A DNA stretch of 44,189 nucleotides, taken from the IMG/VR virus record IMGVR_UViG_3300032579_000032, positions 1 through 44,189 of that record; one strand, given 5' to 3'. This stretch comes from a virus. Shown piece after piece: positions 3,567 through 44,188 of the stretch. The notes beneath the pieces were generated by a model, which saw nothing but the letters and a program-made list of their open reading frames with translations, searched no databases and had not been told where the DNA came from. Made by a program: the position numbers and the translations under genes. How positions within the stretch are numbered: the first letter of the stretch is position 1; every line of letters starts with the position of its first letter.

Positions 3567-4295
3567 TTAGTTAATTACAAAACCGCTAAAATCTTTTATT
3601 GCCTTACCCTTAGCATATAACGCCACAATATGCCCTTGAGGCTCTACATGACGCACATCACTATCATCCCCACCAATAACGGGCATGCCCTTGAATGTTA
3701 ACGGAATATCAGCTTTAAAGCGAAAAACTGTCGCAATTCTAAACTGATTTTTAATGGCGATCTTATTATATTTATCAAAACTATCAACGCCACTATAAGA
3801 AAAAGTTAAGTCATAATTATTAGGTAAGTTTTTACGGTTAGGAATTTTTGTATAATCATACCATTGCACCAATGGAAAACGGCTCATAATATTAGCGTAG
3901 GTTTTACCGTCAAAATCAATAAAGCTAATATTCTCAAAGCGTATATCACTTGTGCCATTTAAGCGGATTAAAAGGGTTTGCCCTAGCTTATCTGCCTTGC
4001 GTTGACCTGCCTCCACATCTTTTACAATATTAAGCATAAAGTTGTTTTGATCTTCAAAAAAGGATTTTGTCTTATTTATTCTAGCTTGTTGGATAGAATT
4101 AAATGCGCCACGCCCTGCCGTATATAAGCAAGCTTTTTCGCATTGTGCTAGTTTTGCCATTGGGCATACTTGATGCCCTGAGATATCACTAGGGGCTAAG
4201 TATAGAATTCCTGTAAAGTAGCCAAGCTTTACGCCCTTTACGGTTTTGGCATTGGTATTAAAGCCTAATAATGATTTGCGTTTAAATATTGTCAT
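3567..4295 (-). CDS. Gene product 88 (gp88) family protein (242 aa)
   Basis: The N-terminal half contains KLGYFTGILYLAPSDISG followed by CPMAKLAQCEKACLYTAGRG (about residues 44-63) and QQARINKTKSFF. This series is characteristic of the phage family named after mycobacteriophage gene 88, found in many unrelated phages. Three Cys (in CPM, CEK and ACL) could bind a metal; no function is established. The C-terminal half (FRFKADIPLTFKGMPVIGGDDSDVRHVEP) is also typical. The ATG at 4295 lies just after the first gene of the leftward arm. Confidence 0.7.
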   Translation of the reverse strand: MTIFKRKSLLGFNTNAKTVKGVKLGYFTGILYLAPSDISGHQVCPMAKLAQCEKACLYTAGRGAFNSIQQARINKTKSFFEDQNNFMLNIVKDVEAGQRKADKLGQTLLIRLNGTSDIRFENISFIDFDGKTYANIMSRFPLVQWYDYTKIPNRKNLPNNYDLTFSYSGVDSFDKYNKIAIKNQFRIATVFRFKADIPLTFKGMPVIGGDDSDVRHVEPQGHIVALYAKGKAIKDFSGFVIN

Positions 4296-4296
4296 T

Positions 4297-4473
4297 TTAT
4301 ATCTCCAATTCTGTTAATGTTTTTCCGTCATAATCTGCAACTGAATAGCTTATAACATTCTCAATATGTTTACCATTGTAAATCCATTCCATGTAAGCAT
4401 TTGCCTCCTCTTTGGTGTTAAACTTGGCAATTGCTTGATTTTTTTCCACGGTATTTCTATATACATAATACAT
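4297..4473 (-). CDS. First leftward gene: hypothetical protein (58 aa)
   Basis: ATG at 4473 follows AAGGAAT on the minus strand; the stop is TAA 4297-4299. The product begins MYYVYRNTVEKNQAIAKF and has the helix TKEEANAYMEWIY, a common layout for tiny phage proteins (strand, helix, strand). The function is unknown. It is the promoter-proximal gene of the leftward arm: no gene lies between it and the control region. Confidence 0.6.
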   Translation of the reverse strand: MYYVYRNTVEKNQAIAKFNTKEEANAYMEWIYNGKHIENVISYSVADYDGKTLTELEI

Positions 4474-4592
4474 TTTGGTTATTCCTTGTTAGTTAATGTT
4501 AATTTGTTGCTATGTATTAACTATATAGAGGAGATACGTCATGGCCTATAGGGGTTTACCCTAGGTATCCAGGTTATCTCATATTGTGAAAT

Positions 4593-4754: not shown

Positions 4755-4937
4755 CTTTATAGTTATAAAAGAAGGGACAACTACTCAATAATGATATAAG
4801 GATGGGTAGTGTCGAAGTAGTGTAAGTTGTTGATTTAATTTATCACGATATGAAACACCCTAAACTGCATCTCACATAGTGAAACATGCACAGCTTTGGT
4901 GCAGCCTATATAGTAATGGGGACAGACTCACCAGGAC

Positions 4938-5131
4938 TGTTGCGTAGAAACAACACTGTTGTATAATAACAACACTCTAACCTGACAAGCCTAGAGAGTG
5001 TGGTATAGAAACAACACATGGGATATACTGTGGTATAAATACAACACTATGTGGTGTAGATACAACACTGTTGCAAGAGAACAACGCTCCAGGATGACAC
5101 AGGCCCTCCCTAGTGTGGTATAGAAACAACA
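4938..5131. repeat. Array of seven 18-bp dyad repeats (iteron or operator array)
   Basis: Seven copies in the same orientation begin at 4938, 4957, 4999, 5029, 5050, 5069 and 5114. The consensus is TGTGGTATAGAAACAACA; copies at 4999 and 5114 are identical. The copy at 4957 is a perfect dyad, TGTTGT-N6-ACAACA, and the others have one or two mismatched pairs. Start-to-start distances are 19, 42, 30, 21, 19 and 45 bases, mostly near whole helical turns. I found no copy elsewhere in the window. Either replication-initiator iterons or cooperative operators would fit. The AT-rich centres (TATAGA, TATAAT) also resemble -10 boxes. Confidence 0.85.
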
Positions 5132-5238
5132 CAGGGTATTCCCTAGGGCGTGGGGGTAAAAAAGAATTATTTAATTATATATATAACGCTATTTATAACG
5201 CTGGCATAGTTTTTAAAACAGGGGGTAGGGTCTGAGGA

Positions 5239-5544: not shown

Positions 5545-5573
5545 ATTATAACACTACTTTGTTCTTTTGTCAA
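5545..5573 (-). promoter_or_regulatory. Consensus sigma-70 promoter, leftward
   Basis: On the minus strand TTGACA (plus 5568-5573) and TATAAT (plus 5545-5550) are separated by exactly 17 bases, and TGT precedes the -10 (extended -10). Transcription should start near 5538 and run left. The first gene on that side starts at 4473, so the leader would be about 1.06 kb and include the repeats, unless other promoters exist. Confidence 0.8.
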
Positions 5574-5679: not shown

Positions 5680-5708
5680 TTGACAAAGTAACAAAAATAT
5701 GTTATAAT
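5680..5708 (+). promoter_or_regulatory. Consensus sigma-70 promoter, rightward
   Basis: TTGACA (5680-5685) and TATAAT (5703-5708) are separated by 17 bases, with TATGT just before the -10 (extended -10). It lies 34 bases before the small terminase start and should drive the packaging and virion genes with host RNA polymerase. Confidence 0.85.
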
Positions 5709-5741: not shown

Positions 5742-6269
5742 ATGACACGAAGAAAAAAGAGAGATGTAAAAGCTGTTGGAGCACATTGGTCTGATTCACA
5801 GAAGATCGAAGCTGTAACGACCTACTTAGCTCTTGGCAATGGAGCACAGACAGCAGCGGTGTTGAGTATACCAATTCAAACGTTTAATCGTTGGAGATAC
5901 TCAGATTGGTGGAAAAAGATTGAAGAAGACCTCAAGCGTGAGGAGAATCTTCATCTTAACGCCAGGCTAAGCAAGATTGTGTCTAAAGCTTTGGATGTCA
6001 CAGAAGATAGGCTAACTAATGGTAATTACCAATATGACCCTAAAACTTCTGAACTGATTCGTGTCCCTGTATCCATTAAGGATGCTACCAAGGTAGCTAC
6101 TGACATGTTGCAACGCAAAGACATTATTGAGTCTAAGCCAATGCAAGAACAGATTGAACGTACTGTAGATGATAGGCTTGCTAAGCTTGCTGAACAGTTT
6201 AAAACCTTTGCTAGACCAAAGGAAAAAGATATCACCCCTCTTCCATTGGTGATTGAGAACGAAGTTTAA
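5742..6269 (+). CDS. terS: Terminase small subunit (TerS)
   Basis: The product (175 aa) begins with a basic tail (MTRRKKRDVK), then a helix-turn-helix-like segment (residues about 18-55: YLALGNGAQTAAVLSIPIQT then FNRWRYSDWW), followed by a long helical region and an acidic end. This is the usual plan of a small terminase subunit, which binds the packaging site and hands DNA to the large subunit. Its place directly before the large terminase supports the call. ATG 5742 is the only start in frame; its ribosome site (aaaaga) is weak. It ends TAATG, sharing bases with the next start. Confidence 0.8.
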   Translation: MTRRKKRDVKAVGAHWSDSQKIEAVTTYLALGNGAQTAAVLSIPIQTFNRWRYSDWWKKIEEDLKREENLHLNARLSKIVSKALDVTEDRLTNGNYQYDPKTSELIRVPVSIKDATKVATDMLQRKDIIESKPMQEQIERTVDDRLAKLAEQFKTFARPKEKDITPLPLVIENEV

Positions 6270-34167: not shown

Positions 34168-34401
34168 TTAGTGTCGTGTATTTTTCTTGTATTTTTCTGC
34201 CATCATTGCATCTGCCATTGCATATGAAAAATGTGCAATTACTTCACAATACTCATCTACATTAGTTTCTGGTACTCCTGCTGCAGAGATTGCTCCTGAT
34301 AATACTGAAGTAGCAAAGAAATCTCTTAAATTAGCAATAGCAGTTGATTCTAAATACTCTATTCTTTGTTCAATGGTTTGTTTTTTATCTTCTAGTTTCA
34401 T
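34168..34401 (-). CDS. Hypothetical protein (77 aa)
   Basis: A helical, mostly acidic product (MKLEDKKQTIEQRIEYLEST, then ISAAGVPETNVDEYCEVIAHFSYAMADAMMAEK). Its start overlaps the HNH gene's stop as ATGA, and its end lies eight bases before the reductase start. The function is unknown; the context suggests the nucleotide module. Confidence 0.6.
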   Translation of the reverse strand: MKLEDKKQTIEQRIEYLESTAIANLRDFFATSVLSGAISAAGVPETNVDEYCEVIAHFSYAMADAMMAEKYKKNTRH

Positions 34402-43974: not shown

Positions 43975-44179
43975 CATCTAGATTACTTAAATCATCTAAA
44001 TAATAATCAATGTCATCTATGTCATTACTATTTAGTAAATCTATTCTATCGTGATAAAGTATATCTGTTTTTACTGTTTTTAAACACTTCAAACACATAT
44101 CAAGATAATCATTAGAATTAACCGACTTAATGGTCGCCTCATAATCAGATAATAAATTATTGCAACAATAACATCTCAT
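43967..44179 (-). CDS. Small zinc-ribbon-like protein (70 aa)
   Basis: Two Cys pairs (CYCC near residues 3-6, with CLKC near 29-32) suggest a zinc ribbon, followed by an acidic tail (DIDDIDYYLDDLSNLDDY). Small phage proteins starting MRC..C with a second C..C are common and of unknown function. The gene spans the contig join: its first 39 codons are repeated at 1-117. Confidence 0.7.
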   Translation of the reverse strand: MRCYCCNNLLSDYEATIKSVNSNDYLDMCLKCLKTVKTDILYHDRIDLLNSNDIDDIDYYLDDLSNLDDY

Positions 44180-44188
44180 GGTGTTCTC
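44063..44188. repeat. Right copy of 126-bp direct terminal repeat
   Basis: Identical to bases 1-126 (see the left copy). The final base of the window (A at 44189) does not match the C at 127. Confidence 0.9.

Follow-up and report, generated by a model that had tools for sequence, protein, structure and literature searches.

What reads an array of near-identical dyads that a phage keeps between its two transcription arms, and what does the phage gain from being read? We asked this of one IMG/VR virus record, the 44,189 nucleotides of which are called the window here. Bases 1-126 of this record are identical to bases 44063-44188, and this 126-bp terminal overlap means that the window is a circular, complete 44-kb phage genome. 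A leftward operon runs from 4473 across the circular junction to about 32 kb, a rightward structural arm starts at 5742, and the 1.27 kb of non-coding DNA between the two arms, the divergent control region, holds the array. The junction itself is spanned by the gene of a small CxxC..CxxC protein.

The array and its control region

The control region carries, at 4938-5131 and on the plus strand only, seven 18-bp dyad copies starting at 4938, 4957, 4999, 5029, 5050, 5069 and 5114, putative operators of a host outer-membrane-protein regulator. With up to three mismatches to TGTGGTATAGAAACAACA, six copies are recovered (4938, 4957, 4999, 5029, 5050 and 5114, all on the plus strand), as opposed to a mean of 0.07 and a maximum of 1 in shuffled sequence; the seventh, TGTTGCAAGAGAACAACG at 5069, is degenerate, with one half-site mismatch. 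The copy at 4957-4974 (plus strand) is a perfect TGTTGT-N6-ACAACA dyad and an exact match to the host operator TGTTGY-N6-RCAACA introduced below, and four of the seven copies contain the half-site TGTGGT, which is rare in hosts. The original prediction of seven same-direction copies, one of them a perfect dyad, is thus borne out, as is its statement that they occur nowhere else: the same scan of the whole window found no match beyond the six array copies, and a reversed-pattern control gave none. The proposed spacing near whole helical turns did not hold up. The copies are 19, 42, 30, 21, 19 and 45 bp apart, their coherence with a 10.5-bp period is not significant (p ~0.075), and the phasing is not kept in relatives.

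Two divergent sigma70 promoters, each with a 12/12 match to the consensus and a TG-extended -10 element, recur in most relatives. The leftward one occupies 5545-5573 on the minus strand (-35 at 5573, -10 ending at 5545), the rightward one 5680-5708 on the plus strand, before terS. Given this position of the leftward promoter, the array falls within the leader of the leftward transcript, about 410-610 bp in; this leader passes first through a conserved element and then through the array. The leftward operon opens with a 58-aa gene (4297-4473, minus strand), followed by a phrog_1617 gene (3567-4295, minus strand) that is an early gene in other array phages too; neither has an assigned function. 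The first gene of the rightward arm (5742-6269, plus strand) is terS, the terminase small subunit, so named from its position before terL.

The conserved element, AAAAAGAATTA..AACGCTATTTATAACGCTGGCATAGTTTTTAAAACAGGGG, is non-coding and lies directly right of the array at 5155-5223. It is the best-conserved stretch of the control region, with a conservation of 0.79 over 5150-5235 versus 0.52 for the whole region and 0.47 for the array, and it is kept in all TerS relatives, with and without the array; the contig L012 has three tandem 40-bp copies of it (4469-4585). It is a possible candidate for an origin or a packaging site. Left of the array, a second repeated motif, YCAYAWNRTGAAA, occurs at 4579-4591 and 4872-4884, where 0.27 copies would be expected per whole window. 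With two to four copies per genome, it is found within the array clade also in L005 (2363 and 2392) and L007 (3966-4313), and it was not found in array-less relatives or in the other lineages scanned. A AGGGTAAACCC-like inverted repeat is present near the start of the leftward operon (4553, 4632 and 5134 in the window, 3938 in L007), and similar sequences are seen in relatives.

A search by TerS gathered 17 related contigs. Two of these relatives, L005 and L007, together with L008, which is near-identical, carry five or six copies in the same place, and the array is absent from all other TerS relatives read, including L001, the relative with the closest TerS (84% identical), which keeps both promoters and the conserved element. 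The array is therefore an accessory part of the control region. L007 has an extra copy of the motif in the opposite orientation near its leftward genes (3914-3931). In three lineages of small phages, the position of the array upstream of terS and its orientation relative to terS are constant, while its distance to the rightward promoter ranges from 268 to 553 bp.

The same dyad in unrelated phages and in host genomes

The repeat is not confined to this family. Phages whose terminases differ, and larger phages too, carry it in pairs or arrays. Two copies within 31 bp of each other occur in 31 viral contigs from several unrelated lineages, but in not one of the 84,980 bacterial genomes (species) scanned. 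The logo built from 88 phage sites is sharp, TGT[TG]G[CT][AG]TA[AG]AAACAACA. In several larger phages (L035, L159, L168, L151/L158), a sigma70-like promoter follows the sites, 5-46 bp downstream and in the same orientation. No array was found in the known phage and plasmid collections scanned, nor in the cultured OM43 phages MEP401, MEP402, MEP301 and Melnitz or the first 30 of 38.6 kb of Venkman; since it is absent from these five, the array is not general among phages of that family.

A single-site scan of bacterial genomes, in which non-proteobacterial matches were put down to chance in AT-rich genomes, over-represented the Methylophilaceae among the matches listed. The exact motif has 38 sites in 187 Methylophilaceae genomes (reversed control: 0), and the relaxed dyad TGTTGY-N6-RCAACA (TGTTGYNWWWNNRCAACA) is present in 170 of the 187, compared with 13 for the reversed control, at one to four sites per genome. 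With genes taken from simple ORF calling, the gene immediately downstream of nearly all of about 60 sampled Methylophilaceae sites encodes an outer-membrane protein (porin, OmpA, OmpW or MlaA). The dyad nearly always lies 40-230 bp upstream of the gene, often at fixed distances, namely 156 or 186-192 bp for porins and 64-84 bp for mlaA. Pfam searches of representative downstream proteins returned MlaA, Porin_O_P, OmpW, OmpA, TonB receptor, inverse autotransporter and Porin_4; L382, a porin-like protein, matched no Pfam family. Weaker motif matches in four genomes precede the same kind of gene, and 56 of 120 sampled Burkholderiales genomes carry the dyad, often before porins, versus 11 for the control. 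The TGTGG half-site variant that dominates the window copies precedes mlaA, ompA and ompW in hosts. The phage repeat is thus the very dyad that precedes porin, OmpA, OmpW and MlaA genes in hosts.

At the host loci L347 and L348, the dyad stands about 30 bp upstream of PhoB-looking (porin O/P) and FNR-looking (ompW) boxes, an arrangement that suggests a general co-regulator of outer-membrane genes. A literature search for the motif string returned no relevant paper, and we found no published description of this Burkholderiales operator; the analysis exposes a conserved outer-membrane operator of this order. The dyad also serves as a sequence signature by which uncultured phages from freshwater can be linked to Methylophilaceae and other Burkholderiales.

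The reader of the array and its possible effects

From the identity of the sites, the phage copies are very likely bound by a conserved, host-encoded envelope regulator. Of the two readers that the original prediction offered, a small unknown early protein and a host factor, the evidence strongly favors the latter: the same dyad stands before host outer-membrane genes, and unrelated array phages have no reader gene in common. Going by the motif alone, the phage probably infects a freshwater member of the Methylophilaceae or of related Burkholderiales.

But which regulator would it be? In the streamlined hosts G121 and G041, the OmpR family comprises just two regulators, one PhoB-like and one OmpR-like by sequence, and OmpR, likewise assigned by sequence, is present in the dyad-carrying genomes G121, G133, G041 and G073. 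In G073, one dyad (L430, G073:C59:779810-779827) has a porin gene on one side and, 66 bp downstream, an ompR-like gene on the other; no dyad was found upstream of ompR in G121, G133 or G041. By function, and by exclusion within the OmpR-family and HTH_8 regulators, OmpR is the leading candidate, a tentative assignment that may yet go to another protein. NtrX, with its NtrYX envelope regulon, was rejected because every HTH_8 protein of G133 is either NtrC-like or Fis-like. Fis and NtrC themselves were set aside on their motifs. The CtrA box is TTAA-N7-TTAA, which TGTTGY-N6-RCAACA is not, and the hosts here are Burkholderiales, so CtrA was dismissed as well.

On balance, we favor the explanation that the array consists of high-affinity operators of a host outer-membrane regulator, most likely OmpR of an EnvZ/OmpR system, in a host that probably belongs to the Methylophilaceae or related Burkholderiales. 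Such a regulator would occupy the phage array, and the bound array would then, for example, block the leftward leader or act on the arms from a distance, so that the phage programme would track the state of the cell surface through host-state-dependent transcription. The coupling to surface state is proposed because of the analogy with CtrA-site arrays discussed below. Whether binding of the regulator decides when, or how strongly, the phage transcribes from its divergent control region is a nearly even call, leaning slightly against; a cooperative switch for both arms, as first envisaged, is plausible. The variable distance between the array and the rightward promoter argues against simple contact activation and would allow a roadblock, looping or a sponge.

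The sponge is the foremost of the rivals, though an unlikely one: multiplied by phage replication, the array would titrate the host regulator and shift porin levels with no phage promoter being regulated, for example lowering a receptor and preventing superinfection. It would fit small-phage arrays that keep no fixed distance from a promoter, several near-consensus copies per phage genome where a host genome has so few, and host targets that are surface proteins of the sort phages use as receptors. However, the sites of the larger phages stand right upstream of promoters, where mere pairs would titrate little, and a local role is suggested by the array's conserved place between the divergent arms. 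That unrelated Burkholderiales phages independently gathered porin-regulator operators as a protein-free decoy, thereby reshaping the receptor repertoire of infected cells, seems a shade less likely still. It is improbable in our view that the repeats control replication in the manner of iterons, set next to an AT-rich unwinding element and recognized by a protein of host or phage, and the originally suggested origin is weakened accordingly. The direct repeats do abut the conserved AT-rich element, and the GC-skew analysis that had been proposed places a minimum in the control region, but the skew merely follows gene direction, the control region has no DnaA-like box, and the same repeat marks host porin promoters. 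An iteron origin would show the repeats beside the element in all members; every relative has the element but most lack the array, and L001 retains promoters and element without it. Loss of the repeats in close relatives that keep the rest of the region had been named in advance as evidence against the prediction; such loss is what we see, and it counts against a core origin and not against an accessory regulatory array.

Two further readings would keep the array within the phage's own machinery. Many small early genes lack an assigned function, and a 77-aa protein (34168-34401) weakly matches a PHROG named transcriptional regulator (E 1.7e-4), which might favor an operator for a phage-encoded repressor or activator, a small early protein. 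This is quite improbable, since an all-against-all blastp of array and array-less phages revealed no gene common to the array lineages yet absent from the others, the site is strongly enriched in host genomes, and the P2 Ogr/Delta family is absent. Sites of P2 Ogr and P4 Delta are 18 bp long, TGT-N12-ACA-like and located upstream of promoters, a likeness to the present motif that was used only as a lead: the annotated activator sites of P2 do not resemble the motif, and an Ogr_Delta (PF04606) search of the array phages tested gave nothing above the family cut-off and one weak match, in G015 only; this late activator was therefore rejected. Least probable of all, and by a good distance from being likely, is a packaging site of the cosB or pac type, in which the small terminase would bind the repeats upstream of terS. 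The placement and constant orientation in the three small-phage lineages would suit it, but the array does not co-vary with TerS, as L001 has an 84%-identical TerS and no array and phages with unrelated terminases do have one.

Comparison with known systems

Having returned to a host outer-membrane regulator as the favored reader, we would like to place the array in the context of known systems. In the E. coli EnvZ/OmpR porin regulon, as here, the regulated genes encode porins and further outer-membrane proteins, and the streamlined hosts have an OmpR-like regulator. The sites differ: E. coli OmpR sites are tandem direct repeats of KWWGTTACAT (PMC5438342), whereas the sites here are the inverted dyad TGTTGY-N6-RCAACA. 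Phages reading a host master regulator through sites in their own DNA have a precedent in the lytic phi29-family phages, which, as cited in PMC9437464, exploit host Spo0A; in that account, the regulator is one of sporulation, the host is Gram-positive, and the motif is different.

The closest parallel is the 'lytic deferment' of phages of Alphaproteobacteria, several of which carry regions dense in CtrA sites, where CtrA binds and transcription changes (Mascolo et al. 2022, PMC9437464). CtrA controls pili and flagella, which phages use (PMC9437464). What characterizes such host-regulator arrays is found here as well: the copies form one intergenic cluster, the motif is a host operator enriched upstream of its regulon, and it recurs in several phage lineages. 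Shared, too, are the large intergenic region and a regulator tied to surface structures, with outer-membrane proteins here in place of pili and flagella; the regulator, the motif and the host class differ. Binding was demonstrated for CtrA, whereas our case is read from DNA sequence, and the sites of the small phages lie hundreds of base pairs from strong promoters. If the favored explanation is true, this would be a second case of phages wired to a host cell-surface regulator, with another regulator in another bacterial group, which would point to a general strategy.
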